Positions 3,680 through 27,829 of a DNA stretch of 31,106 nucleotides are shown piece after piece; position 1 is the stretch's first letter; each line of letters begins with the position of its first letter. Both the position numbers and the translations under genes were made by a program. The notes beneath the pieces were generated by a model. That model ran no database searches. It saw only the letters and a program-made list of their open reading frames with translations, and was not told the origin of the DNA. Where the stretch lies: positions 1 through 31,106 of the IMG/VR virus record IMGVR_UViG_3300041955_000050, one strand, 5' to 3'. Source of the DNA: a virus.

Positions 3680-3708
3680 GCCTAGCATCTCCAATTTTGC
3701 ACAAAGAA

Positions 3709-6086: not shown

Positions 6087-7058
6087 ATGAGTGGGACCGG
6101 CGGCTGGCAGACTCAGATATTTTCGCAACCTGCAGCTTTCCTCGCGGGCGATCGCGTCAGCCAAAACCCGATTTTCAGCTATGATGCTGGTCCGGGCGGC
6201 TTGGTCGCGGGATCTTCGCTGTTCGTCGGCCGCTTCGCGTGGGTGACGCAGCCGCTGGATCCGAACGGCACGCCGAGCATTGCCAACAGTTTTGGCAACG
6301 GGGCCCCCAACGGCTTCCTGATGAAGAATCAGCAGGCGCTGAATACCACGTTCCTGTCGTTCGCGGGGATGCAGGTCCAGCCGGGCGTTCAGACTGCGCT
6401 GCAGATTTCCGGCGACTTCGCTGTGGTCAACGACGGCACCACCGAGGCGGAATACGGCCAGAAGGCTTTTGCCTATGTGGCATCGGGAAAAGTGACGTTC
6501 GCCGCGGCCGGGACCGTGTTCGGTGGCGCGTCCGCGACGGCCAGTTCGGTCGCGGCTGGCGCTTCGTCCGTCACCGGTTCGATCTCCGGCAACGTGATGA
6601 CGGTAACTGTCGTCGGTTCTGGAACGCTCTATCCGGGAACATCGATTTCCGGCACCGGCATCCCGACCGCTCCCGCCCCGCAGATCGTCTCGCAGCTGAC
6701 CGGCACCGCCGGCGGCGTCGGCACATACGCGCTGAACACTGGTGAGATCACCTTCGCCTCGGGTACCATCACCGGCGCCTACGGAATCCTGACCATTGGC
6801 ACCGCAACCGGCACATTTGCCATCGGCGATGTTCTCACCGGTACCGGCGTTGTAACAACGCCTCCGACCGTAATCACCGCGAATCTGACCGGGACCGGCG
6901 GCAGCGCTGGCACGATGGTCGTCAACAACGCCACCGTGGTGAACTCGGCTACCATCACCGCGAGCCTCGCTGTCGAGACGAAGTTCTGGGCGCGCTCCAC
7001 CGGCTTGCCCGGTGAAGCGGTCAAGATCAGTTCGACCACGGACGCAGGCGGCAACTAA
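6087..7058 (+). CDS. Capsid decoration/cement protein with two inserted beta repeats
   Basis: A 323-residue protein between the protease/scaffold and the major capsid gene, the usual place for a decoration or structural cement protein (gp24-like). AAGGAG at 6074-6079 supports the start. The N-terminal ~145 residues (GGWQTQIFSQPAAFLAGDRVS, then GRFAWV and GFLMKNQQAL) are the cement-like core, which resumes at the C-terminus (ETKFWARSTGLPGEAVKIS). In between are two copies of a Gly/Thr-rich module, about residues 169-222 and 232-290, with the pattern GTGxP...I..LTGTxGxxGTY. The same module is found in the neck and sheath proteins. It probably trimerises on the outer capsid surface, with the modules exposed. 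Confidence 0.75.
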   Translation: MSGTGGWQTQIFSQPAAFLAGDRVSQNPIFSYDAGPGGLVAGSSLFVGRFAWVTQPLDPNGTPSIANSFGNGAPNGFLMKNQQALNTTFLSFAGMQVQPGVQTALQISGDFAVVNDGTTEAEYGQKAFAYVASGKVTFAAAGTVFGGASATASSVAAGASSVTGSISGNVMTVTVVGSGTLYPGTSISGTGIPTAPAPQIVSQLTGTAGGVGTYALNTGEITFASGTITGAYGILTIGTATGTFAIGDVLTGTGVVTTPPTVITANLTGTGGSAGTMVVNNATVVNSATITASLAVETKFWARSTGLPGEAVKISSTTDAGGN

Positions 7059-10651: not shown

Positions 10652-11242
10652 ATGACGGCGGCTATCGATTTTCAAGGGATTAGGTTCGGCAAACTGGTAG
10701 GCATTGATCCCGTTCATGGGAAGCCTTGGAGCGTATGGCTTTGGCAATGCGACTGCGGCTCCAAAAAGGAAATCATCGCGTCAAACGTAAAACGCGGGCT
10801 GACGCGATCCTGCGGGTGCGTCCAGAAGCAGTCCCGGACTAAGCACGGAGCCCACAAAACCCGAACCTATCAGGCATGGATAAATATGAAGGCGAGGGTC
10901 GCTGGCAATTCTGAGAATAGCGAAAAGAACTACACCAACAGGGGCATATCCGTGTGCCAGCGCTGGGAAAAGTTCGAGGCATTCATCCAAGATATGGGAG
11001 AGTGTCCCGAAGGTCTTACGCTTGATCGCTATCCTGACAACGACGGGAATTATGAGCCTGGAAATTGCCGGTGGGCGACGCCTGGGCAGCAGAGCGCAAA
11101 TACTCGGCGAACCCGACTGGTGGTGTTCGACGGACGGGAAATGTGTTTAGCTGAAGCTTGTAGACTGGCTGGTCTCAATTATCGTACTGCAATGAAGCGA
11201 ATCAGCCGCGGGATGACCGCGCAGCAATCGCTCAAGTCTTGA
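10652..11242 (+). CDS. HNH-like homing endonuclease with zinc-ribbon N-terminus
   Basis: 196 residues; GAGG at the previous stop serves as ribosome site. The N-terminal half has WQCDCGSKKEI and SCGCVQKQ, the paired Cys motifs of a zinc ribbon. The central part has YTNRGISVCQRWEKFEAF, TLDRYPDNDGNYEPGNCRWAT and QQSANTRRTR, which is the pattern of a phage HNH/His-Me-type endonuclease family. The C-terminal region (CLAEACRLAGLNYRTAMKRI) is a helix-turn-helix-like DNA-binding segment. It is a paralogue of the minus-strand gene at 12579-13205. AT-rich codons and its place between structural genes mark it as a selfish gene. Confidence 0.82.
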   Translation: MTAAIDFQGIRFGKLVGIDPVHGKPWSVWLWQCDCGSKKEIIASNVKRGLTRSCGCVQKQSRTKHGAHKTRTYQAWINMKARVAGNSENSEKNYTNRGISVCQRWEKFEAFIQDMGECPEGLTLDRYPDNDGNYEPGNCRWATPGQQSANTRRTRLVVFDGREMCLAEACRLAGLNYRTAMKRISRGMTAQQSLKS

Positions 11243-11298: not shown

Positions 11299-12135
11299 AT
11301 GACGAAGTTCACCCTCTGGGACCCCACGATCGGCGAGCGCCCGGCCAATCTTGCTTTGACGAACAATTTTGCTGGAACCACCAATCCTGGCGTCGGGAAT
11401 GATTCGACGCAGGGATATACTCCGGGTTCGGTCTGGGTGAACGTGACCGGACAGACTGTCTGGACTTGCATCAGCAACGTGGCTGGCGCGGCAAACTGGA
11501 TTCAGGATGCACAGAATACGGCGATTATTGCCGCTCCGGCCGGGACGGCAGCGAGTATCACTGGTGGCGTGGCATCGACCACTACGGGAGCCGGTGGCGC
11601 ATCCAATGTCGTCGGCGGTGCTGGCGGATCAACTTCCGGTACAGGCGGCGCAGCACAACTCACAGGCGGCGCGGGAACGGCCGGTAATGCCAACGGCGGT
11701 GATGTCAATTTGGCAGGTGGCGCGCCGAATGGTTCCGGTGTCAAAGGAGTCGTGCGCGTTGGCGGCATTGAGCTGATCACTCAAGACGCCCAAAATGCGC
11801 AGACAGTGTCGGCGACCCTAACGGCGGCAAACGTCCTCACTGGCATTATCACCGTCGCGCAGGGTTCCGCCGGCGCCTCGGCGCTGCAACTCCCCTTGGC
11901 GACGGCGATGGACACCGCGCTTCCCACGTCGGCGGCCAATGATGCCTTCGACTTCTCGCTGATCAACATATCGACGGTGGCGGCCGAATCGGCATCGATT
12001 ACCACGAATACGGGCTGGATTCTGGTCGGCGACATGGACGTGGCGGCGAACAACGCTGCGACCACGAAGTCGGCGGGACGATTCCGGGCACGCAAGACCG
12101 GAACCGGAGCCTGGACGCTGTATCGCTTGTCGTGA
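11299..12135 (+). CDS. Gly-rich fibre or head-spike protein
   Basis: 278 residues, AGGAGA seven bases upstream of ATG. The N-terminal ~75 residues (GSVWVNVTGQTVWTCISNVAG) form a short attachment domain. The middle (about 85-155) is a run of GGA/GTGG/GGAG triplets (SNVVGGAGGS, TGGAAQLTGGAG) that resembles polyglycine-type fibre domains. The C-terminal ~110 residues (TGIITVAQGS to GAWTLYRLS) form a beta-rich tip. It lies between neck genes, so it may be a head or collar fibre rather than the main tail fibre. Confidence 0.6.
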   Translation: MTKFTLWDPTIGERPANLALTNNFAGTTNPGVGNDSTQGYTPGSVWVNVTGQTVWTCISNVAGAANWIQDAQNTAIIAAPAGTAASITGGVASTTTGAGGASNVVGGAGGSTSGTGGAAQLTGGAGTAGNANGGDVNLAGGAPNGSGVKGVVRVGGIELITQDAQNAQTVSATLTAANVLTGIITVAQGSAGASALQLPLATAMDTALPTSAANDAFDFSLINISTVAAESASITTNTGWILVGDMDVAANNAATTKSAGRFRARKTGTGAWTLYRLS

Positions 12136-12159: not shown

Positions 12160-12582
12160 ATGTGGTGGCGCCAACCGCGCAGATTGATCGTACCTTTGTC
12201 GATGACGGAGCAATTTGATCTTGCGCAGCGCCGGTTCGCTTATGTGGCGATTTTAAGCACTGTTCTGCTGTTCGTCCTGATCGGGGTCTGCTTCGCCAAG
12301 GAGGGCGATATCCACACCGCATCTCCGCTCCACGACTGGTTCATGAGCCTGAAATCCGGAAAGGGGCCATGTTGCGCGGATGCCGACGGCAATGTGGTCA
12401 AGGATTCGGATTGGGAATCCAAAGACGGCCGCTATAAGGTTTTCCTTGGCGGCGAATGGGTCAATGTTCCGCCTGATGCCGTAATCACGCAGCCTAATCT
12501 CGACGGCCGAACGATGGTCTGGCCGATCTGGATTGACGGCAAAGAGACGGTCCGTTGCTTTATGCCGGGCGCTGGTGCCTAA
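12160..12582 (+). CDS. Membrane-anchored hypothetical protein
   Basis: 140 residues, AAGGAA seven bases upstream. One transmembrane helix at about residues 28-45 (YVAILSTVLLFVLIGVCFA) acts as signal or anchor, followed by a ~95-residue exported domain. Conserved-looking landmarks are LHDWFMSLKSGKGPCCADADG, the adjacent Cys pair, VPPDAVI, TMVWPIW and the end RCFMPG. I recall similar unnamed proteins in rhizobial genomes and prophages, but no function. The stop overlaps that of the convergent endonuclease by two bases. Confidence 0.68.
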   Translation: MWWRQPRRLIVPLSMTEQFDLAQRRFAYVAILSTVLLFVLIGVCFAKEGDIHTASPLHDWFMSLKSGKGPCCADADGNVVKDSDWESKDGRYKVFLGGEWVNVPPDAVITQPNLDGRTMVWPIWIDGKETVRCFMPGAGA

Positions 12583-13205
12583 CGATCCCATCGAGATCTC
12601 TTGCGCAAATTCTCCGGAGCAAAAATGCGATCATCGCTCCATCCGTTTCGCTGACGACTCGCGATGATGCCTACAGACAAGCCGGACAATGTCGAAGCTT
12701 CCCCACGGCTGATTCTCCCCCAAGGAGTTTGAAGGTAGACCGTGTGCCTTTTGTTTTGGGCCTGACGTCGGCGTGTGGCCCATATGACATTGAATGGATC
12801 GTAATTCCCTTCGTTGTCCTCTCGTTCCAATGTCGCACCGGGGAAAAACGACGCTTCCATATCGAGCAAAAAATTAGGAAATTTAAGCCATCTATCGCAA
12901 ACCAAGATGCCTCGGGCACCATAGTCTTTGTAATCTTTCGATTGAGAATTTGCGCATCGATCAATCATGTTCGACCACCTCTTCCACAACGGGTGCTTGT
13001 GAGAGTGGCCTCCTTGGGTGTTTCGGAGACATCCGCAGGAGTTTGTGCTACCATTTTTTAGATTTCCTCTCTTCACGGGCTTGGTCGCTCCGCAGTCGCA
13101 TTGACATAACCAAACGGAATCTGACTTTCTGGTTGATGGATCGGCTAGTTTTATGACTGTAAGCATTCCGAATCGCTGGTTCGAAAGATCAACGAATGCC
13201 GGCAT
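12579..13205 (-). CDS. HNH-like homing endonuclease with zinc-ribbon N-terminus (second copy)
   Basis: 208 residues on the reverse strand with an excellent ribosome site (AGGAGG, complement just above 13205). WLCQCDCGATKPV and NSCGCLRNT form the zinc ribbon. YGARGILVCDRWLKFPNFLLDM and ATLEREDNEGNYDP...VIWATRRRQAQNKR match the endonuclease core of the gene at 10652, and the C-terminus has a helix-turn-helix-like region (ISRGEASTLSGLSVG). It faces the operon, and its stop codon overlaps that of 12160-12582. A weak promoter (TTGCCA-17-CACAAT) may lie upstream on the reverse strand. Confidence 0.82.
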   Translation of the reverse strand: MPAFVDLSNQRFGMLTVIKLADPSTRKSDSVWLCQCDCGATKPVKRGNLKNGSTNSCGCLRNTQGGHSHKHPLWKRWSNMIDRCANSQSKDYKDYGARGILVCDRWLKFPNFLLDMEASFFPGATLEREDNEGNYDPFNVIWATRRRQAQNKRHTVYLQTPWGRISRGEASTLSGLSVGIIASRQRNGWSDDRIFAPENLRKRSRWDR

Positions 13206-13270: not shown

Positions 13271-13729
13271 ATGAACCTGCATGGCATCGCCGGTCCCGTC
13301 GTCAGCGCCGTGAATCCGACGATCATCGCGTCGTTTCAGGGCAGCAACGGCTTCAGCCAGAACGCGGATTTCTCGCAATCGGCGGCCTATTTGCCGCCGG
13401 TCTCCGTACCGGCGCAGGTCCAGCAGCTTACCCAGCGCGAGCTCCAGCACCTCGAGCAACTCAATCTGCAGGGAGCCGAGATCGGAATTTATCTCTATGG
13501 GATCGCGAGCGGTGCGGTCCGCGTCTCGCAAAAGGGGGGCGACATCATCACCGTTGCGAGCGGAGCGCGCGCCGGTGTGTATTTGACGACAGCCGTGCTA
13601 GAACAGTGGCCGGATTGGGTAAAGGTCGCGTGCACGCTACAGAATCAGGACGTCGGTTCGACCAGCGGACCATCGTTGGATTACTCGCAGCCAGGTAACT
13701 CGCAATATCAGCCGGGGCTTTCCGAATGA
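13271..13729 (+). CDS. Conserved tail/neck protein
   Basis: 152 residues starting MNLHGIAGPVVSAVNP, with no strong ribosome site. AQVQQLTQRELQHLEQLNLQG, EIGIYLYGIASGAVRV and GGDIITVA follow the pattern of a small conserved protein that accompanies neck and sheath genes in contractile phages. The C-terminus, SGPSLDYSQPGNSQYQPGL, is nearly identical to that of the neck terminator protein encoded at 22519-23334. Its stop overlaps the start of the large fibre gene. Likely a tail-completion or neck component. Confidence 0.65.
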   Translation: MNLHGIAGPVVSAVNPTIIASFQGSNGFSQNADFSQSAAYLPPVSVPAQVQQLTQRELQHLEQLNLQGAEIGIYLYGIASGAVRVSQKGGDIITVASGARAGVYLTTAVLEQWPDWVKVACTLQNQDVGSTSGPSLDYSQPGNSQYQPGLSE

Positions 13730-16700
13730 GCAAAATCAGGGTTCTCGTTGCCGCTGCGGCCCTTTTCGCGGCATCGCTGTTCGGACCTCCGGCGAACGCC
13801 GACTATGTCGTCAAGGACGGTAATGGCACCATCCAGACGATCAAGGCCGGCGTCGTCGGCAGTGCGATCCTGCCTTACATGTCGCCGGTCGATTCGACCG
13901 GAACGTCATTCGGCACCATGGCGAATCCGTTTGCCGTCCAGTTCGGCGCGGGAGTAACGCTGCCGGCATTTGCCACCCCGCCGCAGGTAATCTGCATCTC
14001 AGGGTGCGCCAGTTCGTCGATCAATTTCGGCAATCCGATCGGTGCTGCCGGCACCCCTAGTGGGTTCAAGGATTCTTTGGGCAATTTCCAGTCGCTGCTC
14101 GGCGATGTCGTCAACGGCCAATGGGTGAACGTCAAGGCCGGCTCGCTATCGCTGACGGGAACGCTGCCTGCATTCACCTCGACCCCGACGTTCAACCTCG
14201 GTGCGCTCAACGGCGCGGCCACGAACGCGAATCAGATTGCGGTCATCGGATCGGTCGCTGGCGGAACGCCCGCTGCTAATTCGAACATGGTCGGCGGGCA
14301 GTACAATTCGACGCCGATCACGCTGCTGAACACCCAGCAGGCGGCCCTCCAACTCGACGCGAACGGGTTTATCAAGGTCAACATTGCTGCGGGCGCGGCC
14401 GCAGGCGGCACCTCGTCGACCTTCGGCGCGGCATTCCCGAGCGTCGGTACCGCGATGGGCATGTTGCAATCGGGTAACATGGTCGCGATCACCGGGACTG
14501 CGGGCAACCTGAATGTGCAATGCTCGAACTGCTCCGGATCGGGCGTCAGCACGGCCGACCAAGCCACATTTGTGCCGGGAGTATCAATCTTCGCCGGCGG
14601 CGGCGGTTTCTATCAGACCACGGTCACCAGCAATCCCCTGACGAGCGGCCAGCAGGGCATGTTCCAGGTAACCCAATTCCGGGCCCTGATGACGAACCTG
14701 CGCGATTCGGCCGGAACTGAGCTCGCCACCTCGGGGAACCCGCTCCAAGTGACGCTGGCGAACACCGGGGCGAATGGGACAGCCCTGCTTGTGAATGGCC
14801 CAGGCGGGGTATTCCCGGTCACAGGGACGGTCACCGCTAACCTTGGCACCATCGGCGGGGTCGCCACCCAAACCACGCTGGCGAGCGTCCTGACGGCCTT
14901 GGGATCGCCTTTCCAGGCGGGTGGATCGATCGGAAACACGTCCTTTGCTGTGACGCAATCGTCGGCGGCGGCGCTGAACGCCACAGTGGTCGGAACCGGA
15001 ACCTTCGCGGTCCAGGCGGCGCAGTCCGGAGCGTGGAACGTCACGAACATCACCGGGACGATCTCGCTGCCGACCGGAGCCTCAACCGCTGCGTTGCAGC
15101 CGAGCAATGTGGCGCCAAGCAGCACGACGAGCACTCAGACCGGCACCATGGGGATCGGTGCGGTCACCACGGCGTCGCCGACCTATACGAGCGGCCAGAA
15201 CAACTATTTAAGCCTCGACACCGGCGGCAATTTGCGGGTGGTCGTTTCTGGCGGCACCGGCGGCGGGGCGGTGTTCGGCCCGACGGCCGTGGGCAGCGCG
15301 AACGCCAATCCTCCGGTGGTGATCGGCGGCACGGTTACGGGCGCGGCGGGCCAGAACGTCGTCGGTGCCGCCGTCAAGCCGGCGAGCACGGCACCGCTCG
15401 CCACCGATACGTCGATGGTCGTGTCGATTTCACCGAATAGTGCGGGATTAGTCGGTACTGGAACGGCAGGTTCAGCCAATGCGCAGGTCCTGACTGTCCA
15501 AGGCATCGCGGCCATGACGCCGCTGCTGGTTTCTCAATCCGGAACGTTCACTGACCGAATTACCGGCAACGCCGGCGCGCTGCTCGACTTCGCGGGTCAG
15601 AACGCGGCCGGCACTTTCAGCTCGGTTTTGGTCGGCGGCCAATTCAATACCACGCCAACGACGATCACCTCAGGTAATTTCTCGCCGTTCCAGATGGACG
15701 CGGCCGGAAACCTGCTGGTCAATGTCAAGGTAGGCGGCGGTGGTGGCGGCGGTGGCGCTGTCACGATTGCGTCCGGTGCGGTGGCCAGCGGCGCGTATGC
15801 ATCGGGCTCGATCGCTTCGGGCGCCTATGCGTCGGGCGCGTTCGCGTCGGGCGCGTTCGCAGCGGGCTCGATCGCCAATGGGGCCAATGTCGTCGAGGGC
15901 ACGATCACTACCGCGCATAGTTGCTTGGTGGCAGGCTACACGATCATCGGCTGTCTCGGTCAGATCGACGACGATATCAAGGGACCGATCCCGCAGGTTA
16001 CCGGACCTTTGAATGCGGCGACGGCGGTCTCGACCAATGCGCTCACAGTCGGCGGTCAGTATCTCTCGACGCAACCGACAATGACGAATACGCAACAGGC
16101 AGGCCTGCTGTTGTCGAGCCGCGGCGAGCTTCTGGTCGCGCCGGGGACATCCGGTTTCCCGGTCACATTCTCGGGCAATGTGACGGTGGTTGGCCCCACC
16201 GCTTCGGGATCTGCCGCTTCGACCAATCCTGTCTTGATGGCTGGCACCACTACCGGCGGTCCTACAAGCACTATCTCTATTCCGGCAGTTTCATCGTCGG
16301 GTGTCTTATCGGTTGGTCTCGCGACATTGAATGCAGTCGCGTTAGGTTCGCCATCGAATTACGGAACATCGCCGGGCGCCGTCGCGGTTCAGGGTGTCAA
16401 TGCGTTCATTACGAACACCGTTCCGGTCACGCTGACATCGACCACGATCACCGGTACCGTTGCGGTAACTCAATCGACGTCGCCGTGGATCGTCGCCGGC
16501 GGTGGTACAGCCGGCACTCCTGGCACCGCTGTTCTCGCTGTCCAGGGCGTCAGCGGCGGCACAGCCGTTCCGATCAGCGGCACGGTTGCGCTCTCGGCCG
16601 GCGCTGCGGCCATCGGATCGATCACGAACACTACATTCGCAGCCACCCAGGCGACTGCGGGTAGTTTGAATGCCACTGTGGTTGGCACAGGCACCTTCGC

Positions 16701-17676
16701 TGTTCAAGCAACTCAATCCGGAACGTGGAATATCGGATCGATTACGACGTTGCCCGCACTGGTCGCGGGCTCGGCGATCATCGGCAAGGTCGGCATCGAC
16801 CAAACCACGATCGGAACGACCAACGGCGTTGCTCTTGTCGCGATCAATGCCGCGACCGCGTTGGCCGGCGCAGGCGCAGTAGGCACCGGTTCGTTGCGCG
16901 TTGCAGTGGGGCAGGACACGACGACGATCGCCGGCGCGGCTCCCGGCACCGCCGGCGCGGCCTCGGCGAATGTCGTCACGGTGCAAGGTGTCGCATCTAT
17001 GACTCCGTTGGCTGGAAACATCACGCAAGTTTTGGGAGCGGCAATTAGTGCTACCAACGGGCTCTTTTCAAATCTATTACAAGGCAATGCGGTTCTGAGC
17101 GCTTCGAATCCAAGCTTTGCGGCGATTGCAACAGGCGGCAACACGGCGGCGGTCAAGGCGGCTTCGACACCATCTCCGGCAACCGATCAATCGCTATCGG
17201 TCACGATCAATGCAGGCAGCAACGGCATTACACCGCCCGGTCAGGCCACCAAATCGGCCTCGTTGCCAGTTACTATGGCAAGCGATCAATATGTCGATCC
17301 GTGCCAATCGGGGGCGGTAGCGAAATCAAGCGCGCCAATCAACGTCACCAGCGCGACCACGACAGCGCTGGTTACGGTGTCCGGATCGACTACGGTTTAT
17401 GTTTGCGGTTTCGATATAACGATCGCTCCGTCCGCGACGGCGGCGGATTCTGCCGAATTTGAGTATGGCAGCGGGACCGCGTGCGCGACCTCGCCGCAGG
17501 CATTGACGGGGACTTTTGGCGCTGGCGACCTGACCACGGCGGCGCCTCCAACCCATGTCAGTTACGGCGGCAGCGGTGCGACGATCTTCAAATCAGCAGC
17601 GTCGAATGGTGTGTGCCTTCTCTCGGCAGGAACCACCGTCAACATTCAAGGTGTGATCACATATGTTCAGCAATAA
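13726..17676 (+). CDS. Giant repetitive fibre protein with signal peptide
   Basis: 1316 residues. The N-terminus (MSKIRVLVAAAALFAASLF, cleavage likely after ANA at residue 25) is a classic Sec signal peptide. The rest is Gly/Ala/Thr/Val-rich and beta-predicted, with many loosely repeated blocks such as NATVVGTGTFAVQ..QSG.WN (seen near residues 420 and 985) and VVGGQY/VGGQFN..P. A glycine run (residues 670-680) leads into eight 5-residue repeats. Two copies of a block with VQGVA.MTPL also occur. This is typical of phage fibres or surface adhesins. It starts inside the preceding stop and overlaps the next gene by 14 bases, so it is in one operon with four more secreted-type genes. Confidence 0.72.
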   Translation: MSKIRVLVAAAALFAASLFGPPANADYVVKDGNGTIQTIKAGVVGSAILPYMSPVDSTGTSFGTMANPFAVQFGAGVTLPAFATPPQVICISGCASSSINFGNPIGAAGTPSGFKDSLGNFQSLLGDVVNGQWVNVKAGSLSLTGTLPAFTSTPTFNLGALNGAATNANQIAVIGSVAGGTPAANSNMVGGQYNSTPITLLNTQQAALQLDANGFIKVNIAAGAAAGGTSSTFGAAFPSVGTAMGMLQSGNMVAITGTAGNLNVQCSNCSGSGVSTADQATFVPGVSIFAGGGGFYQTTVTSNPLTSGQQGMFQVTQFRALMTNLRDSAGTELATSGNPLQVTLANTGANGTALLVNGPGGVFPVTGTVTANLGTIGGVATQTTLASVLTALGSPFQAGGSIGNTSFAVTQSSAAALNATVVGTGTFAVQAAQSGAWNVTNITGTISLPTGASTAALQPSNVAPSSTTSTQTGTMGIGAVTTASPTYTSGQNNYLSLDTGGNLRVVVSGGTGGGAVFGPTAVGSANANPPVVIGGTVTGAAGQNVVGAAVKPASTAPLATDTSMVVSISPNSAGLVGTGTAGSANAQVLTVQGIAAMTPLLVSQSGTFTDRITGNAGALLDFAGQNAAGTFSSVLVGGQFNTTPTTITSGNFSPFQMDAAGNLLVNVKVGGGGGGGGAVTIASGAVASGAYASGSIASGAYASGAFASGAFAAGSIANGANVVEGTITTAHSCLVAGYTIIGCLGQIDDDIKGPIPQVTGPLNAATAVSTNALTVGGQYLSTQPTMTNTQQAGLLLSSRGELLVAPGTSGFPVTFSGNVTVVGPTASGSAASTNPVLMAGTTTGGPTSTISIPAVSSSGVLSVGLATLNAVALGSPSNYGTSPGAVAVQGVNAFITNTVPVTLTSTTITGTVAVTQSTSPWIVAGGGTAGTPGTAVLAVQGVSGGTAVPISGTVALSAGAAAIGSITNTTFAATQATAGSLNATVVGTGTFAVQATQSGTWNIGSITTLPALVAGSAIIGKVGIDQTTIGTTNGVALVAINAATALAGAGAVGTGSLRVAVGQDTTTIAGAAPGTAGAASANVVTVQGVASMTPLAGNITQVLGAAISATNGLFSNLLQGNAVLSASNPSFAAIATGGNTAAVKAASTPSPATDQSLSVTINAGSNGITPPGQATKSASLPVTMASDQYVDPCQSGAVAKSSAPINVTSATTTALVTVSGSTTVYVCGFDITIAPSATAADSAEFEYGSGTACATSPQALTGTFGAGDLTTAAPPTHVSYGGSGATIFKSAASNGVCLLSAGTTVNIQGVITYVQQ
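15769..15888 (+). repeat. Eight 15-bp repeats encoding ASGA(Y/F/V/I)-type pentapeptides
   Basis: Eight consecutive 15-base units in the large fibre gene encode ASGAV, ASGAY, ASGSI, ASGAY, ASGAF, ASGAF, AAGSI, ANGAN. The regular five-residue period, with a hydrophobic every fifth position, suggests a solenoid or a flexible spacer. A seven-glycine run precedes it. DNA copies differ at wobble positions, so the repeat is old or selected at protein level. Confidence 0.75.
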
Positions 17677-18673
17677 TTTTGTGAGATCGATCGCGCTCGC
17701 GTGCGCGCTCGTTTTTGGGTTGCTTATAGCCACGCCAGCATCGGCTGCGATGGTCAAGCAACAGAAACCATTTGCGGAATATCTTGAGCCGATTCCAGTC
17801 GCTGGTTTTTTGTTGCTGGTAGGCCCTTCAACAAGCTACGTCGGCCCCGGCGATATCGTTAGCGGATCAATTGGTTGGTATTCTTGCGCCAGGGTCTACA
17901 ATGCTGCTGCTGCGACTATTTCAACAAGCATGTGCGATCTGGTTGATTCCGCCGCACCGACAGTCGTCGTCTGTACCCTTCGAGGATCTTCAACAGGGTA
18001 CGTTGATCTCACTGCTTATTGCCCCGGCAGCACGACGCCAGCGGCGCTCTGTGCCACCAAGACCGGAGGTAAATGCAACGTATCCCAGATGTATGATCAG
18101 TCTGGCTCAAGCCATCCTATGGTTGAAGCCACCGCTTCAGTCCAGCCTGTTCTTGTATTCAGTTCTCTTAATGGATTGCCGGGGATAACCGGGGTAACAG
18201 CAAATAACACCATTCTTGGCACCTCTGCGACGATAACTCAAACGCAGCCATTCAGCACGTCCGGAGTATTCAAGAGAACTTCTGTATCTGGCAACTTCGA
18301 TGCCGTCATGGGTCTTTCGCTGGTAGGCGCTATATTGTTTGGCGGCGGCACGACGACAGGAAAAGCTTCAATAGATGATGACACTATTTACTCTCCCGCC
18401 TCTCCAGCGATGCCAGAAAATGCGTTCACGGCAATGCAGGCATTCTATAGTGGTACATCGTCATTGCTGACGATTGACGGAACCGATAGCGCGACAGGCT
18501 ACGCCGGAACTTATGGCATTTCTGGCACAGTTCGCATTTTTCGTGGCAACGCTTGCTGCACGATGACAGGAACCATTATGGAAACCGGGATTTGGAACGC
18601 ATCGTTTTCGAGTGGCAATCGTACTGCGATGAACGCCAATCAGCACAGCGCAACCGTGGGGTATAATTTCTGA
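17663..18673 (+). CDS. Secreted lectin-like (LamG/arabinofuranosidase-like) fibre-region protein
   Basis: 336 residues. A signal peptide covers residues 1-28 (ASA before the cut). The mature part (GWYSCARVYNAAAATIS, CNVSQMYDQSGSSHPMVEA, PVLVFSSLNGLPGI) follows the pattern of concanavalin A-like jelly-roll modules, including the YDQSG and QPVLV strand motifs seen in arabinofuranosidase B-type and LamG-like domains. Such a domain would bind or cleave surface polysaccharide. Catalytic residues cannot be assigned. It overlaps both neighbours and has lower GC than the head genes. Confidence 0.6.
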   Translation: MFSNNFVRSIALACALVFGLLIATPASAAMVKQQKPFAEYLEPIPVAGFLLLVGPSTSYVGPGDIVSGSIGWYSCARVYNAAAATISTSMCDLVDSAAPTVVVCTLRGSSTGYVDLTAYCPGSTTPAALCATKTGGKCNVSQMYDQSGSSHPMVEATASVQPVLVFSSLNGLPGITGVTANNTILGTSATITQTQPFSTSGVFKRTSVSGNFDAVMGLSLVGAILFGGGTTTGKASIDDDTIYSPASPAMPENAFTAMQAFYSGTSSLLTIDGTDSATGYAGTYGISGTVRIFRGNACCTMTGTIMETGIWNASFSSGNRTAMNANQHSATVGYNF

Positions 18674-19212
18674 TGCGTAGGTTCATCGTAACTCTTCTGA
18701 TCGCCATCCTCACCACGGCGCCATCTAGCGCGTTCTGGCATGGCATCTCCACGATCATACCTGCTGGCACTTCTCAGATGGGATTAAATCCCCCGCAGGT
18801 CAATCCTCAGACTTTAACCAACATATTCAAGGGAATGGAGATTGGACCAGGGCAAGGCTCCGATCCCAAGTTATACGATATCAATCAGTATCCAATCAGC
18901 ACACTAGCTCAAGCCGATACCGGCCAGGTTATTGGCCCTCTTTGGCCGGGAGCTACTTATAAATTTTCATGGCCTTCCACGCGCGCCAGTGGGCAGGTCC
19001 AATTGGGCGGCGCTATCGTCATATTTTTTAATCACAGCGCGATTACCGCATTCTCGGCTACAAACTGGAATGTCGATGCCAGCACGACATTATCCGCCGG
19101 AACCCCTACGTTCGGGCATACGACATCGGCGTCAGGTTCGACCGCATTTTCCGCAAATTGGACGACTGCTACTGATGCCGCCGCTATTTCTGTCGCGACA
19201 TTTAGCCCATGA
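18673..19212 (+). CDS. Secreted small protein related to the N-terminus of the next gene
   Basis: 179 residues, one-base overlap (TGATG) with the gene before. Signal peptide residues 1-20 (MRRFIVTLLIAILTTAPSSA). Residues about 45-105, including NIFKGMEIGPG, YDINQYP and FSWPSTRASGQV, resemble the start of the mature 953-residue protein (NFARNLQNLAS, LDVNQYP, VVRWTGTAGG). It has no counterpart of the catalytic part. It looks like a truncated or specialised paralogue carrying only the N-terminal module, perhaps for attachment. Confidence 0.58.
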   Translation: MRRFIVTLLIAILTTAPSSAFWHGISTIIPAGTSQMGLNPPQVNPQTLTNIFKGMEIGPGQGSDPKLYDINQYPISTLAQADTGQVIGPLWPGATYKFSWPSTRASGQVQLGGAIVIFFNHSAITAFSATNWNVDASTTLSAGTPTFGHTTSASGSTAFSANWTTATDAAAISVATFSP

Positions 19213-22070
19213 AAAAAATCGGGATGCTGTCTCGTCGTAAATTTCTTTGTGGCGTTTCGTTAACGGCGATGATGCTTGTCATTACGCTAGCCGACGCTGG
19301 TTATCATCACGGTTCCGCTACGGCATTAGGCAACGTATCGACCGGGCCATCCGGAAGTTTACTTGGAGCATTCAACAATTTTGCGCGTAACTTGCAGAAT
19401 TTAGCAAGCACTCAGACTGGCTTTCCGACGGCACTGGATGTCAACCAGTATCCGAATAACTACGCCTCGACGCCTGCGGGATCGCTGACCGCGCCCATAT
19501 CCACCGTTTTTCAACTCCCGTCCGATATCACGACTTCTACGCAGATGGTGGTCCGCTGGACCGGAACTGCCGGCGGCGGCGGTTTCGGAATGAACATTGG
19601 TTCGCCAGGGTTCACCATCGTTAGCGATCCCGGAAATTGCGCCAATGTAGCTCACCTAGGCTTTGCTTTGGTCTTGACTGGAATTAGTGGCCGGGTTGTC
19701 TTCACTTTCGGTCAGGTCACCGGATTTCAAACATCTGGTTGCCCGTTCGCATGGAATAGCGGCAGCACCTATTCCGGATTTGGCGGTCTCATTATTTGCC
19801 GACTATCCGACGAAGCAACTGTGCTGGCGGAAGCCGGACCTAGCGATGTCTGGAACGCAAATTGGATCGCCGTCTACAAGGCTTGCAATCCAAAGATCAT
19901 CCGGATCATGGCGCTGGTCGATCCGAACGACAACAATAATTTTCCGCAAACGAAGTATCGCAAGGCGTGGCAGACGGCAGCCGGATACCAAACAAACAAC
20001 TGGGTGCCCAACACTTGGGCCGGCGCGTTAACCGGGACTACAAACTACACGGCATCCAACACGCCGACTGATTTCACCACGGTCACTAATCCCTATGGCC
20101 TGACGGTGCCCGCGCACGGGACGGTCATACAGGGCTACCCTCTCAATGCGGCTTCGGCAACTACCACGTCCACCTTGACCGTTGGCGGCGTAGGCCCGAT
20201 CCCAATCGGTTCATTGGGTGGTTCATTCCCACAAATCGCGATCGCCGGGACCGTCGTTACTACGGACAACATTCAGCTTTCCTTTACGGGAGCCTATCTC
20301 AACGGCGGTTCTGCCGTCGTTCTCAATGTCACGACGCTTGGGACGACCACGACCACGGCGGCGGCGGCCGTTGCTGCCGCTATCAATGCCAACACGACGT
20401 TAACGAGCGCGGGCATGACGGCCACGGCCAGCGCCAACGCCGTCAACCTTTTGATGGTGTTTCCGAAAGGATATGTGGCCATCGCGGCAACAGTAACCGC
20501 GGGGTCTGAGACGGTCACAACTGGATTGTCGCTAGGGCAGTCGAATGCCTTGGAAGCTAACTCAAGCGTCACTTTGTTTTACGATATCTACTATCACATG
20601 TGGATGTACTCGTTCTCGGCCGCATCTGATCCAGACGGCCTTCATTCTTTTCTTCCGTATGAGGTGCTTGTTGGCTTGGCGAATAGGGTAAATGCCCATT
20701 TATGGTACAATTTCCCCGGCCACTATGACAATGCTTCGATCACCGCTACCACTGCCTATGCTGCGGTCGCCTTAAATCCGCAACTGAATTTTTATTGCGA
20801 GCACCACAACGAAGTCTGGAACGTTGCGGCGGCATTCCAGTACACGTTCTACGCCGTGACCGCGGGGAACATGCTTGGTGCCCCTGATTTCGTCTCCGGG
20901 TACTCGACCTGGTACGGACTCAAAGTCGCGCAAATGTCCACCTTGGCCGTTGCTGCATGGGCCGGGGCAGGACAAAGCAGAAGCCGCTTGAAAATCGTTT
21001 TGGCGTGCCCGTCACAGGCAGACGGCGGGGCGGCCGGGGATGCCGGAAACATTCGTTTGAATGGTCAGTATTTGACCACCGGAAACGCAGTCTACAATAC
21101 GATCATTGGAACGAGCTACAACGCTTCGCCCAATCGTCCGATTGATAAATCAGACGTGCTTTCCTATGCGACGTACTGGTCAGGCTCGCAGTCTGTCGGG
21201 CCTACCGATGCCGGATATACGGCAGCCATGACGGCGTGCGGCCCCGATACGCTTGCGCTGGGCGGCACGCCACCAAAGAGCGGGCTACTCGGCGCGGCTA
21301 GCGACTACGCGAGCGGCAATGCCACGCAGATGTCGAACGCTATCGATTACATTATTTGGGACTGGCAAGAAGGCCAGCGCATGACGCGCACGGTTACGGC
21401 GATTTCGGGCGCGAATATTACGTGCAATGTGACCGGGTTCGTGGTGGGAGCGAAAGTTTCGTTCTCTATCTTAAATGGGGGGACGCTCCCGCCAGAATTG
21501 CCGATCCTCTCCAACAGCCAGACTGCGAACTATTGGGTTGTCAGCGTTGTTGGCCTTGTCATTCAGGTTTCTGCCACTAATGGCGGCCCGCCGATTATAT
21601 GTTCAACGGGGATAACTGGAGCCGTCAATTTTGGGTACAGCGACTTCGGCAACACCCAAAGCAATTTCTTCAATAACGTATATCCGGCTTACGAGGCGGC
21701 GATCACGGCGCAATGTTCAGACGCGCAAAGAGCAGGTATCGGGCTCGCTCCGATTACCGTCGAGTGTTACGAAGGTGCGATGGAGGCCATCTATCCGGCT
21801 GTTTCTACGCTGACGACACTTGGAGTAGCTAATCCAAGTACGTATGGCGGCCCAACGGGTGAGATAGCAAATCTCATCAACGCCGCGAAGAATGATCCGA
21901 GATTCAAGACGAGTTGCTTGGCACAGTTTTCAGGTTTCAAGTCTTTCCCTCACTCCGTTACACCATCTTGGTTCGTGGTCGATGGTGGTAGTCAGTGGTC
22001 ACTGATACCTAGTCTGACTATTGTGGGCGCAGTGCCATATCAATCCTACTATGCGGTCAGAGATTTCTAG
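19209..22070 (+). CDS. Secreted glycosidase-like fibre/depolymerase with twin-arginine signal
   Basis: 953 residues. The N-terminus carries SRRKFLC (residues 8-14), then a hydrophobic stretch and ADA (28-30), matching a Tat signal peptide. The mature part resembles a clan GH-A (beta/alpha)8 hydrolase. CEHHNEVWN places an Asn-Glu pair at 534-535 as likely acid/base. TVECYEGAM (E852, E855) is a likely nucleophile site. Two beta-rich inserts interrupt it, about residues 315-453 (Thr-rich, AAAAVAAAINANTTLTSAG) and 727-811. A polysaccharide depolymerase role at adsorption fits, though the substrate is unknown. The start overlaps the previous stop by four bases. Lower GC than the head genes. Confidence 0.62.
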   Translation: MKKIGMLSRRKFLCGVSLTAMMLVITLADAGYHHGSATALGNVSTGPSGSLLGAFNNFARNLQNLASTQTGFPTALDVNQYPNNYASTPAGSLTAPISTVFQLPSDITTSTQMVVRWTGTAGGGGFGMNIGSPGFTIVSDPGNCANVAHLGFALVLTGISGRVVFTFGQVTGFQTSGCPFAWNSGSTYSGFGGLIICRLSDEATVLAEAGPSDVWNANWIAVYKACNPKIIRIMALVDPNDNNNFPQTKYRKAWQTAAGYQTNNWVPNTWAGALTGTTNYTASNTPTDFTTVTNPYGLTVPAHGTVIQGYPLNAASATTTSTLTVGGVGPIPIGSLGGSFPQIAIAGTVVTTDNIQLSFTGAYLNGGSAVVLNVTTLGTTTTTAAAAVAAAINANTTLTSAGMTATASANAVNLLMVFPKGYVAIAATVTAGSETVTTGLSLGQSNALEANSSVTLFYDIYYHMWMYSFSAASDPDGLHSFLPYEVLVGLANRVNAHLWYNFPGHYDNASITATTAYAAVALNPQLNFYCEHHNEVWNVAAAFQYTFYAVTAGNMLGAPDFVSGYSTWYGLKVAQMSTLAVAAWAGAGQSRSRLKIVLACPSQADGGAAGDAGNIRLNGQYLTTGNAVYNTIIGTSYNASPNRPIDKSDVLSYATYWSGSQSVGPTDAGYTAAMTACGPDTLALGGTPPKSGLLGAASDYASGNATQMSNAIDYIIWDWQEGQRMTRTVTAISGANITCNVTGFVVGAKVSFSILNGGTLPPELPILSNSQTANYWVVSVVGLVIQVSATNGGPPIICSTGITGAVNFGYSDFGNTQSNFFNNVYPAYEAAITAQCSDAQRAGIGLAPITVECYEGAMEAIYPAVSTLTTLGVANPSTYGGPTGEIANLINAAKNDPRFKTSCLAQFSGFKSFPHSVTPSWFVVDGGSQWSLIPSLTIVGAVPYQSYYAVRDF

Positions 22071-22138
22071 ATTCGTAACGCTACCCCACGTTTCCCCATC
22101 CCGCTAGGTGAATAGCGCTGGAACAAGGAAGATCAAAA

Positions 22139-22522
22139 ATGAGAATAGTTTTCGCTCTAGCGCTCTTTATCTCCGGATCATTCGCCGCGATGACACAGGG
22201 GATTCCAGGGCAGCCTCTCGTCCCGCTGGGATCGTGCCAGCTCTCGCCGACCACGGCGACGAAGCTTTCCACATGCATTGGAGCATGGAATGGTGCGGCC
22301 GGGGGCATTCCGGCCGGCGCTAACGCCGTGGTGATTCGCACCGATACCCAGCCTGTGCGCTACACCGATGATGGAGTCGTGGTGCCGACGGCGTCGATCG
22401 GCAATCCGATCCTTGTGGCCGATCCGCCGCTCTACTATCAAGGGCCGCTGGCGAATCTTCAGTTCATCCAGACCGCATCAGCCGCGAAGCTGAACATCCT
22501 GTTTTATAAAGCACCGCAGTGA
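22139..22522 (+). CDS. Small secreted beta-sandwich phage protein
   Basis: 127 residues, AAGGAAG ribosome site. Signal peptide about residues 1-17 (MRIVFALALFISGSFAA). The mature part has AVVIRTDTQPVRYTDDGVV, PTASIGNPI, LYYQGPLANLQFIQTASAAKLNILFYK. This pattern is common in small phage proteins encoded beside fibres, probably a beta-sandwich head-fibre or receptor-binding accessory. It is the last of five consecutive signal-peptide genes. The stop overlaps the next GTG start. The gap before it (22071-22138) has only a weak 5-bp hairpin. Confidence 0.58.
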   Translation: MRIVFALALFISGSFAAMTQGIPGQPLVPLGSCQLSPTTATKLSTCIGAWNGAAGGIPAGANAVVIRTDTQPVRYTDDGVVVPTASIGNPILVADPPLYYQGPLANLQFIQTASAAKLNILFYKAPQ

Positions 22523-23334
22523 CCGTTGCGATATCGATCAGTCCCACACAATCTGATCTCCAGAGGCTCTTAGGGGCTTTCCTGGTCGATGTCCTTCCGC
22601 CTAACACCAGCGTGATCGGCGCCCAGCCGAATCAAGTCGCCGAGCCTAAGAATCCGAATTTCGTGATGATGATGCCGACTCGGTTCGAGCGGTTGGAGAC
22701 CAATATCGACAGCGTCCAGGACGTCCGGATTGTGGGGTCGATCAGCGGAAGCACACTCGCGGCCGCGTCCGTGCGCGGAAACATCACAATCGGGGCAATC
22801 TTGTTCGGCCCTACGGTTCCCCGCGGTACCAAGATCATCGCCCAGGACAGCGGGGCGCCTGGTGGGTCCGGGACCTATGAGATCAACTCCAATCTGACGG
22901 TACCGGCCAACTCGGTCTTTTCGGCCGGTCTCAAGACCATGACGCAGAAGTCTGTCGTGACCGTACAGCTTGATTTCCATGCGGCGAGCTATCTTGCGAC
23001 CGATATGGCCCAAACCGTCTCTACGGCCTTCCGGGACGAATATGCGACCCGTTTCTTCAAGGCCTTCGGCCTACCGATCACGCCGCTCTATGCCGACGAC
23101 CCGGGCTGGCGGCCGTTCGTGAACGCCGAAAAGCAGTACGAATGGCGGTGGGTGATCGAGGCGAAGCTGCAAATCGACCAGAGCATCATGGTCCCGCAGG
23201 AGTTCGCTGATTCGGTCGCGCTGACGCTGCTCAACGTCGATGCGGTCGCTCCGCCGGTGCCGCCGAGTTCAGGTCCGTCGCTGGACTATTCCCAGGCCGA
23301 CAATTCGCAGTATCAACCGGGTCTAGGCGCATAA
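22519..23334 (+). CDS. Neck/tail terminator protein with inserted beta repeat
   Basis: 271 residues from GTG 22519 (GTGA overlap). QSDLQRLLGAFLVDVLP, RFERLETNIDS and then TVQLDFHAASYLATDMAQTVSTAFRD, PLYADDPGWRPFVNAEKQYEWRWVIE fit the gp12-like neck terminator family encoded just before sheath genes. Residues about 72-135 are an extra module (IGAILFGPTVPRGTKII, GGSGTYEI) shared with the cement and sheath proteins. The C-terminus SGPSLDYSQADNSQYQPGL matches that of the protein encoded at 13271. It seals the tail end that joins the head. Confidence 0.72.
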   Translation: MTVAISISPTQSDLQRLLGAFLVDVLPPNTSVIGAQPNQVAEPKNPNFVMMMPTRFERLETNIDSVQDVRIVGSISGSTLAAASVRGNITIGAILFGPTVPRGTKIIAQDSGAPGGSGTYEINSNLTVPANSVFSAGLKTMTQKSVVTVQLDFHAASYLATDMAQTVSTAFRDEYATRFFKAFGLPITPLYADDPGWRPFVNAEKQYEWRWVIEAKLQIDQSIMVPQEFADSVALTLLNVDAVAPPVPPSSGPSLDYSQADNSQYQPGLGA

Positions 23335-23394: not shown

Positions 23395-25377
23395 ATGACC
23401 ACCATTCCGGCGTCGCTATTCGTCGCAGTTACCCCGAGCGTCCTCCCGGCCGGAGGCGAGCAACTCGACATCATCACGATGGCCGGCACCGCCTCGAATC
23501 GCGTTCCGCTCGGTGCTGTCTATAGTTTCGCGCTCGGGTCGGCGGTCACCTCGTTCTTTGGCTCCGGATCCCCGGAGGACATTTTCGCCAATGGCGGGCC
23601 GGGCAAGGGATCCGGATATTTCGGTGGATTTACCGGGGCTGATTCGATCCCGGGTGCTTTGTTGTTCGCGCACTACAATCAGGCGGCGGTCGCGGCCTAT
23701 CTATGGGGCGGAAACGCTGGCGCTGCGCTGACGCTGGCCCAACTACAGGCGTTGTCTGGATCGCTGACCATAGTGATGGACGGCTATTCGCACGTCATCT
23801 CGATCATCAACTTTTCGACTCAGACCAGTTTCTCCGGCGTCGCGGCCGCGATCACCGCAGCATTCACCGATCCTACCGAATCCACGTTCACTGCATCGAT
23901 CGGCGCCAGCTTCACGGCGAGCGCGGGATCGCCGACGACTCAACTGGTCGTGACGGCAGTTACCGGCCTGATCTCTGTCGGGGATACCGTCACCGGTACC
24001 GGTGTTCCGGCATCTACGACGATCTTGAGCCAATTTTCCGGCACCCCAGGAGGCGCCGGTACCTACATCATGAGCCAGGCGACGACAGCGTCGTCAGCAT
24101 CCTGCACCAGCGCCAGCACCGTGCTCGACGTCACCGTCGACAGCGACCACGCGATCGCCGTCGGACAGACGCTTACCGGAACCAGCGTTCCGGCGGGCGT
24201 CCTGATCACTGCGCAGCTCACCGGGACGCCAGGCGGCATCGGGACCTATCAAATCAGCGGCGCGCAACTCAATGTCGCCAGCGAGGCTATGACCGGCCTG
24301 GCGACCGCTCCTGTCGTCACGTTCGATTCGCTCTCGGGTGCGTTCATCGTCACATCTGGGATCACCGGGGCGCCTTCGACCTCTGCCTTTGCCACCGGCA
24401 CCCTGGCCGCTCCGCTGTTGCTGACGCAGGCGACCGGCGCCTTCCTGTCGCAGGGTGCCGCGGCCGCGACGCCGGCTTCGTTCATGAACGGTGTCGTCGC
24501 GGTCACGACGAACTTTGCCTGCTATGCGACAACGTTTGATCCAGATGGCGGCTCCGGCAACACGCTTAAACTCGCGTTTGCAGCTTGGAAGAACGCCTTC
24601 CCGAATCGCTATGCCTACGTGGTCGATGACCATGATGTGCTGGCGCGATCGAACCCGCCGCAGACCGAGACGATGGGCTTCATCCTCCCCAACAACGGCG
24701 ACTCCGGCACCTTCCTGCAGTCAGAATTGACGGGATTGAATCAGGCTGCGTTCATCTGCGGATCCGCAGCGGCGATCGACTTCGAAGAAACCAACGGCCG
24801 AATCACGTTCGCCTACAAGACACAGCCCGGACTTGTTTCCGATGTCACCACCGCCCAGGCCGCAGTCAATCTCGGCGGCAATCCGCAGGTCATCGGCTCA
24901 TTTGGAAATGGCTACAATTATTTCGGTGCGGTCGCGACTGCGAACCAGAACTTCACGCTCGAGCAGCGCGGCACGGTCACAGGACCGTTCAAGTGGTTCG
25001 ACAGCTACATCAACCAGATTTGGTGGAACAACCTCCTGCAGAATACACTTTTGAACTTTCTGTCGATAATGAAGGCGATTCCGTTTAATCAGGCCGGCGC
25101 AGGACTGATTGAGCAGGCGCTGGCAACCCCGATTCAGGCCGGTCTCAACTTCGGCGCCGCAGCACCGGGCCCGATTTCCGAGACGCAAATAGCGGAAGTA
25201 AATCAGCAGGCCGGTGCCGTCATCGCCCCGACGCTTCAGACCCAGGGCTATTACCTGCAGGTCAACCAGCAATCCGCCACGGTGCGGGCCAATCGCGGGC
25301 CGTGGGCAATCACGCTGTTCTACTTAGATAGGGGTTCGGTTCAGAGCATCAGCTTGAGTTCGATCGCCGTTCAATGA
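23395..25377 (+). CDS. Contractile tail sheath protein (DUF3383-type) with two inserted modules
   Basis: 660 residues, GGGGGAA upstream. The start (TTIPASLFVAVTPSVLPAGG), VTSFFGSGSPE, ARSNPPQTETMGFILPNN, YFGAVATANQNFTLEQRGTVTGPFKWFDSYINQIWWNNLLQN and RGPWAITLFYLDRGSVQSI fit the DUF3383 sheath family, which polymerises around the tube and contracts. Residues about 166-299 are two copies of the Gly/Thr beta module (TGTGVPASTTIL, GTPGGAGTY; TGTSVPAGVLIT, GTPGGIGTY) and account for the extra length over a usual sheath. The final codons use a changed, AT-richer style and end SLSSIAVQ, a sequence repeated at the end of the endonuclease gene that follows. Confidence 0.82.
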   Translation: MTTIPASLFVAVTPSVLPAGGEQLDIITMAGTASNRVPLGAVYSFALGSAVTSFFGSGSPEDIFANGGPGKGSGYFGGFTGADSIPGALLFAHYNQAAVAAYLWGGNAGAALTLAQLQALSGSLTIVMDGYSHVISIINFSTQTSFSGVAAAITAAFTDPTESTFTASIGASFTASAGSPTTQLVVTAVTGLISVGDTVTGTGVPASTTILSQFSGTPGGAGTYIMSQATTASSASCTSASTVLDVTVDSDHAIAVGQTLTGTSVPAGVLITAQLTGTPGGIGTYQISGAQLNVASEAMTGLATAPVVTFDSLSGAFIVTSGITGAPSTSAFATGTLAAPLLLTQATGAFLSQGAAAATPASFMNGVVAVTTNFACYATTFDPDGGSGNTLKLAFAAWKNAFPNRYAYVVDDHDVLARSNPPQTETMGFILPNNGDSGTFLQSELTGLNQAAFICGSAAAIDFEETNGRITFAYKTQPGLVSDVTTAQAAVNLGGNPQVIGSFGNGYNYFGAVATANQNFTLEQRGTVTGPFKWFDSYINQIWWNNLLQNTLLNFLSIMKAIPFNQAGAGLIEQALATPIQAGLNFGAAAPGPISETQIAEVNQQAGAVIAPTLQTQGYYLQVNQQSATVRANRGPWAITLFYLDRGSVQSISLSSIAVQ

Positions 25378-26062
25378 TAAAATCACGGCATGAAAATATG
25401 TCAGGATTGCAACGAGGCTGAAGCTCATATCAAGCGTCGAGGGAGATGCGTTCCCTGTGCTGAAGTCCACAAAGCGAATCGAGTTAAAGCAAATAACGAG
25501 AGGTTCTACCGAGAGAACCGGGAACGAGAAAAAGCTAGGTCAAAAAAATACAAGGATGACAATCCAGAACTGGTGCGAGAAAAAGCCAAGGCCGACTTAA
25601 TCGTTCGAAAAGACGAAATTTCGGCGAAGCGCAAGAAGTGGCGGCAAGAGAATAAGGATCGGATTCGCGAACAGCGGCACCGGGATCATCTCAGGAACAA
25701 GGAAAAAGAGAACGCCAGATCACGGGCCTACAAGGAAGCCAACAAAGTGGAGCTGGCAGATAAGCAGTCAAAGTACAATAAGGAAAAGCCGGAAGGTAAT
25801 AGGTTTAGACGGTCATTGCGGCGCGCGGCAGAAAAGCAGGCGACGCCTAGTTGGGCCGATAAGGCCAAAATGCGAGCGATCTATGCGGAGGCTGCGAGAC
25901 TAACTAAAGAGACCGGAATTATGTACCATGTTGACCATATCTATCCTCTGCAATCCGATTGGTGCTGCGGCCTTCATGTTGAAACCAACCTGCAGATTCT
26001 AACGGCTTTCGAGAATCAGAGTAAAAAGAACCGTCAGCCGCTCTCCAGCGTCGCCGTTCAAT
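25364..26062 (+). repeat. Direct repeat of the sheath 3' end bracketing an endonuclease gene
   Basis: TCGCCGTTCAAT occurs at 25364-25375 (sheath end) and at 26051-26062 (endonuclease end), in the same reading frame. Both genes therefore end in L-S-S-(I/V)-A-V-Q and a stop. The codons upstream of the 12-mer differ, so the likeness is longer at protein than at DNA level. This marks the borders of the inserted homing gene. Confidence 0.75.
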
Positions 26063-26064
26063 AG
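25390..26064 (+). CDS. HNH homing endonuclease after the sheath gene
   Basis: 224 residues. The N-terminus has CQDC and CVPC Cys pairs (zinc-binding). Residues ~30-150 are a long Lys/Arg/Glu-rich helical arm. The C-terminal HNH domain reads HVDHIYPLQSDWCCGLHVETNLQIL...ENQSKKNR, with the His-Asp-His core and Asn positions expected. The ribosome site is weak. The last residues, LSSVAVQ, copy the sheath C-terminus, suggesting that the gene fused in frame to the old 3' end of the sheath gene. AT-rich codon use contrasts with the neighbours. A selfish gene splitting sheath from tube. Confidence 0.85.
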   Translation: MKICQDCNEAEAHIKRRGRCVPCAEVHKANRVKANNERFYRENREREKARSKKYKDDNPELVREKAKADLIVRKDEISAKRKKWRQENKDRIREQRHRDHLRNKEKENARSRAYKEANKVELADKQSKYNKEKPEGNRFRRSLRRAAEKQATPSWADKAKMRAIYAEAARLTKETGIMYHVDHIYPLQSDWCCGLHVETNLQILTAFENQSKKNRQPLSSVAVQ

Positions 26065-27166: not shown

Positions 27167-27360
27167 TCGAATACGTAAACGTAAGCCAGCGAATCGGGTT
27201 TGCGATATCCTGCAAGATTGCGACCCTTCACGAATTGCAAACGGTTTACTCGACCGCAGACCTTTATGACCTAATAGAAATCTACCTGATTGACGCCTAT
27301 AATCAGCGCGTGATGGATCGGTTGCGGCGACGTCAGGAAAAGATCAATGGCGGCTACTGA
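27103..27360 (+). CDS. Tail assembly chaperone, frameshift extension (long form)
   Basis: In the -1 frame an 85-residue extension follows codon 136 of the short form, giving a product of about 221 residues. It reads FFSSRRPVGTDIFNNDATDDGLVEYV, then a helical domain with ATLHELQTVYSTADLYDLIEIYLIDAYNQRVM and ends QEKINGGY. This matches the small helical second domain (GT-like) expected after such a slip. The end overlaps the first codons of the HNH gene by 14 bases. The frame has no stop before 27358 and no ATG or GTG near its beginning. Confidence 0.65.
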   Translation, partial: FSSRRPVGTDIFNNDATDDGLVEYVNVSQRIGFAISCKIATLHELQTVYSTADLYDLIEIYLIDAYNQRVMDRLRRRQEKINGGY

Positions 27361-27829
27361 AAGGGAAAAGGAGAGGGCTAGAGCTAGATATTGGCGATGC
27401 CGCGAAGCGATTTTAGCCGAAAAAAAGGCGTCTTATTCGGCACAACGTGAAGAAAAAATCGCATATCAGACCGAGTGGAATCAAAACAACCGGGAAAAGA
27501 CGCGGCAGTACAACGCTGCGTGGAGAAAATCTCACCCAGAAGAGGCTCGAATAATTTGCAGAAACAGGGCCGCCAAAAAACGGGCCGTAGGGGGCAATCA
27601 TACAGCTAAAGAAATTAAAGAATTAGCAGCAAAACAGAAGTATCGCTGTGCTAATTCACTTTGTGGAGTTTCGATCAAATCCGGTTATCACGCAGATCAT
27701 GTGATGCCCATGCTGCTCGGGGGCCGAAATGATATAGAGAACATTCAATTGCTATGTGCAGATTGCAATCGCCGCAAGGCTGCAAAGCATCCTGACGTGT
27801 GGGCTAGAGAAAGAATGCTGCTTCTGTAG
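27347..27829 (+). CDS. HNH homing endonuclease that captured the tape-measure start
   Basis: 160 residues; AGGAAA serves as ribosome site. After MAATEREKERARARYWRC comes a basic helical arm, then a classic HNH domain: CANSLC, GYHADHVMPMLLGGRNDIENIQLLCADCNRRK, with the Cys pairs, the HADH motif and the final Asn. The first bases (ATGGCGGCTAC) resemble the sequence just after the gene's stop (TAGGAGGCTAC), and the gene is in the same frame as the tape measure. I infer that it inserted at the tape-measure start and now uses that start itself. Confidence 0.86.
   Translation: MAATEREKERARARYWRCREAILAEKKASYSAQREEKIAYQTEWNQNNREKTRQYNAAWRKSHPEEARIICRNRAAKKRAVGGNHTAKEIKELAAKQKYRCANSLCGVSIKSGYHADHVMPMLLGGRNDIENIQLLCADCNRRKAAKHPDVWARERMLLL

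Follow-up and report, generated by a model that had tools for sequence, protein, structure and literature searches.

Predicted cleavable export signals on fibres and other candidate particle proteins in a group of contractile-tailed soil phages

Five consecutive genes of a contractile-tailed phage encode proteins that begin with predicted export signals, and comparison with relatives suggests that a soil phage group matures part of the virus outside the cytoplasm. On balance, we favor the view that these five signals are one instance of a practice more widespread in this myophage group, in which cleavable signals front particle proteins, the receptor-binding fibre included. Tailed phages are taught as assembled entirely in the cytoplasm, and our search of the literature outside paywalls found no earlier report of exported tail fibres. 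The window (i.e. the whole stretch of DNA analyzed here, a virus record of 31.1 kb) encodes a DUF3383 tail sheath (phrog_205; 23395..25377, + strand), which served as the anchor for gathering relatives.

The five genes form a 9-kb cassette. To its left lies the gene for a neck / head-tail adaptor protein (13271..13729, +; phrog_1912, E 2e-29) and to its right that for the phage neck terminator (22519..23334, +; PF23961, E 8e-18), in agreement with a preliminary description that had placed the cassette between a tail/neck gene and the neck terminator gene. The same description had the genes in one overlapping operon; this fails at the junction of 19209 and 22139 (genes are named here by their first position), which are 68 bases apart with no overlap.

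All five ORFs lie where the preliminary description placed them and start with ATG. We scored N-termini with a fixed, home-made rule that asks for a positive n-region, a 9-residue hydrophobic core and an A-x-A-like site. The annotated starts of the window that pass are exactly 13726, 17663, 18673, 19209 and 22139, and one additional match fell on an internal GTG within the tape-measure gene. The predicted signals, each followed in brackets by the residues after the cleavage site, are MSKIRVLVAAAALFAASLFGPPANA (DYV), MFSNNFVRSIALACALVFGLLIATPASA (AMV), MRRFIVTLLIAILTTAPSSA (FWH), MKKIGMLSRRKFLCGVSLTAMMLVITLADA (GYH) and MRIVFALALFISGSFA (AMT). Given a background of 5.8%, finding 5 signals among 27 genes has P = 0.018, and five in a row ∼1.5e-5; the rule also passes shuffled N-termini, at 14% for signal-bearing fibres and 4% for the genes inserted between the neck genes of relatives (see below).

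Four of the five proteins have the charged n-region, hydrophobic core and A-x-A-like site of Sec signals. These are a 1316-aa repetitive protein (13726..17676, +; signal codons 1–25, 13726–13800), a 336-aa protein (17663..18673, +; codons 1–28, 17663–17746), a 179-aa protein (18673..19212, +; codons 1–20, 18673–18732) and a 127-aa beta-domain protein with a short signal (22139..22522, +; codons 1–16, 22139–22186). The 953-aa product of 19209..22070 (+), predicted to be cleaved after codon 30 (19298), starts with MKKIGMLSRRKFLCG, a twin-arginine motif. By inspection, its SRRKFL (19230–19247) corresponds to the first six positions of the S/T-R-R-x-F-L-K Tat consensus, which points to a substrate of Tat, probably, rather than Sec. 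Export signals had previously been ascribed to all five consecutive genes; their presence is upheld, with the qualification that only four are of Sec type and 19209 resembles Tat. Upstream of the cassette, the 140-aa product of 12160..12582 (+) has a hydrophobic segment followed by GVCFA and then, after the putative cleavage site, KEG. We consider it a probable sixth exported protein; acidic residues close to the N-terminus explain why the rule did not pick it up.

The cassette is rich in Cys (1.15%, compared to 0.40% in other structural proteins; p 2e-4). Mature proteins contain 10 (13726), 8 (17663), 12 (19209) and 2 (22139) Cys residues and, apart from the Cys-less 18673, show the paired Cys expected for an oxidizing compartment. 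Taken together, the signals make export of the five proteins very probable, and export before lysis is well supported by these sequence features.

We scanned with a sheath profile and gathered 80 viral and 57 genomic loci, which include prophages of Bradyrhizobium, Rhizobium, Mesorhizobium and Methylobacterium. In ∼100 relatives, the slot between the two neck genes can lack any gene, contain one that has no signal, or accommodate an exported cassette, and its size ranges from zero to 7.2 kb. The slot is unoccupied in cultured relatives: in Pantoea PA-1, Bcep1 and AP22, the phrog_1912 homologue adjoins and overlaps the terminator gene, and in BK070131 the two are 26 bp apart with nothing between. 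Longer inserts often carry signal-bearing genes, mostly non-homologous to those of the window. By a strict version of the rule, 11 of 46 inserted genes have a signal, versus 22 of 1353 genes elsewhere in the relatives (Fisher 1.6e-9); a loose version passes 78 of the 1353 genes outside the slot (5.8%). Homologues of 13726 in two relatives (L026 and L149) have a signal peptide in the same place, and twin-arginine starts akin to that of 19209 are found in cassette genes of L013, the nearest relative (sheath 77% identical), and L014.

What the cassette proteins do is suggested by position and by related cassettes, from which we infer that the five genes encode fibres or other virion parts. A single-protein search for cassette relatives matched only an overlapping contig of the same virus, and comparison with cultured phages, Pfam, NCBIfam and PDB returned only weak or chance-level matches. 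Scans of Rhizobiales genomes gave very few copies. Profile searches with the 17663 product found no family match, and its mature part, with the structure predicted from the single sequence, reached a pLDDT of only 32. The same export evidence would fit proteins that never join the particle, such as adhesins, polysaccharide enzymes or receptor blockers made before lysis, with suggested roles in superinfection exclusion or in freeing progeny from slime, and the large cassette proteins of the window indeed match no virion family. Nevertheless, cassette proteins from L013 and L014 match one family of virion structural proteins and one of tail proteins (phrog_10356, phrog_5939), and the distal fibre considered next retains its docking domain. 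We regard non-virion roles as a minority possibility, albeit one with appreciable weight, and consider it likely that the exported proteins are true virion parts.

In relatives, a fibre with a phrog_12796 N-terminal domain is encoded immediately behind the last baseplate gene. The window ends (at 31106) upstream of its own distal fibre; the fibre of its nearest relative, L013, is signal-bearing (L176). A scan for such fibres yielded 79 ORFs, or 62 distinct ones once near-copies were removed. A signal peptide is present in 28 of these, counting two (L178 and L187) that are negative by the rule and were classed as signal-bearing by eye, and the remaining 34 are plain. In a Bradyrhizobium oropedii prophage (L093), for example, residues 25–161 match phrog_12796 from profile position 1 (E 1.2e-38), and the match begins directly after the signal. 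More generally, plain fibres begin at domain residue 1, and the signal of the others ends there (offset 0 to –9 residues). The distance from the upstream stop codon to the domain is 12 nt for plain fibres versus 74.5 nt for signal-bearing ones, i.e. ∼60 extra nt.

The full phrog_12796 domain occurs in one copy per record in all 17 records with a signal-bearing fibre. A retained docking domain, present as the sole copy, argues for a particle part over an exported non-virion protein. Shine-Dalgarno motifs of 4 or more bases are found at 44% of signal starts and at no domain start. A dual translation start, yielding both exported and cytoplasmic fibre, was considered and rejected on this last ground and because there is mostly no start codon at the domain start.

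The presence of a signal goes along with the Cys content of the fibre. A Cys pair is seen in 20 of 28 signal-bearing fibres and in none of the 34 plain ones (Fisher 3e-10, uncorrected for relatedness, with very few pairs on independent branches that differ in signal); it is absent from the other 8 signal-bearing fibres. The number of mature Cys is even in 25/28 signal-bearing versus 17/34 plain fibres, and signal-bearing fibres are Cys-richer past the docking domain as well (p 0.004). In a fibre tree built without the two Cys columns, the signal state changes ∼7 times, with at least 4 of these changes forced on supported branches. Signal states of neck cassette and fibre are only loosely associated (6/2/2/8, Fisher 0.054).

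These data bear on another option raised in the preliminary description, that the N-termini mimic signal peptides but act as trimer or attachment tips; on this view, they would remain in the cytoplasm without being cleaved. A hydrophobic tip could aid fibre trimerization, and cleavage here is predicted from sequence. Yet close relatives among the fibres share the docking domain but lack the segment; where present, it terminates with A-x-A just where the domain begins, and it tracks paired Cys and an even number of Cys residues. Since the signal thus behaves as an add-on that is gained and lost before an unchanged domain, we consider mimicry very unlikely.

The small protein 22139 provides a similar comparison. 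Homologues with a signal carry a Cys pair (PLGxCQL...C) in 9 of 9 cases; in 22139 itself, the pair is C33 (22235–22237) and C46 (22274–22276). Those without a signal have it in 0 of 7 cases; their first residues are those of the domain, with a GYQQL-type sequence. Both forms are mostly found at one and the same locus. An AlphaFold model of 22139 has a pLDDT of 83; at E ≤ 0.001, it matches only uncharacterized small viral proteins and no solved structure.

How might exported proteins join the particle? Late in infection, the chains would cross the inner membrane, four via Sec and 19209 probably via Tat. In the periplasm, signals would be cleaved and the chains oxidized, and docking onto particles released from the cytoplasm would follow at or after lysis. 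We place attachment at this stage because no simpler route would bring an exported fibre together with a cytoplasm-made particle. Prelytic export and assembly on virions already released had been listed as separate options; the two are mutually compatible and both stand, with late-attached virion parts being the favored reading of the sequences. The whole chain of export, periplasmic cleavage and oxidation, and late docking seems to us somewhat more probable than not. The broadest version of this proposal, that the lineage finishes its virions outside the cytoplasm, with fibres and neck appendages exported by Sec or Tat, disulfide-bonded and attached at lysis, and with export repeatedly switched, we would put at about even.

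Filamentous phages offer a precedent for virion proteins with cleavable signal peptides: their coat proteins pIII and pVIII carry such signals and assemble at the membrane. By analogy, signals in the present phages might keep proteins at the inner membrane, with particles completed there. However, these are contractile-tailed dsDNA phages, and a TM-like window is present in the mature part of none of 32 signal-bearing fibres. Moreover, the five cassette proteins have no lipobox, and TM-like windows in their mature parts are borderline and confined to two (13726 and 19209). We therefore give completion at the membrane little credence and retain late docking as the preferred reading. Among other phages, the fibres of Bcep781/Bcep1, AP22, PA-1 and Acetobacter phage phiAO1 have the same type of phrog_12796 N-domain, encoded directly after the last baseplate gene. 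The five cultured fibres inspected begin at the domain and leave no space for a signal, whereas 28 of the 62 collected fibres add one. The T4 antiholin RI (PMC8385771) and lambda Lom (PMC12309495) are also phage-encoded proteins with a signal peptide, sent across the membrane, but these are lysis-control or membrane proteins rather than parts of the particle.

If the proposal is true, an exported, disulfide-bonded receptor-binding fibre would imply a two-compartment assembly line. This could be how fibres escape binding to intracellular receptors or sugar precursors, and would provide sturdier fibres for soil. Late fibre attachment would also become testable in a named host, that of the Bradyrhizobium oropedii prophage.

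Several further features of these genomes were observed. A gene upstream of the neck (11299–12135) is plain in the window, while its L013 counterpart (3899–4504) is signal-bearing; a remoter relative in L033 (376–1683) has a signal too, making this a third export/no-export pair. The two neck proteins of the window (13271–13729 and 22519–23334) share a near-identical C-terminal tail, SSGPSLDYSQ(PG/AD)NSQYQPGL, which was not found in the 15 relatives examined and is possibly a shared docking peptide. A motif scan for this tail recovered an overlapping contig of the same virus and four further matches, none of which gave a hit to any protein of the window. Several genes, judged by eye to encode probable endonucleases of homing type (HNH or GIY-YIG-like), are dispersed in the structural operon (1229–1993, 3017–3694 on the minus strand, 10652–11242, 12579–13205 on the minus strand, 25390–26064 and 27347–27829). 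Finally, a module of ∼40–60 aa (GTGSGT..VPxGTTIxSQ..GGxGxY) recurs in unrelated virion proteins (6087–7058, 22519–23334 and 23395–25377, and also in L015, L018, L025 and L033) and within 22139 homologues.
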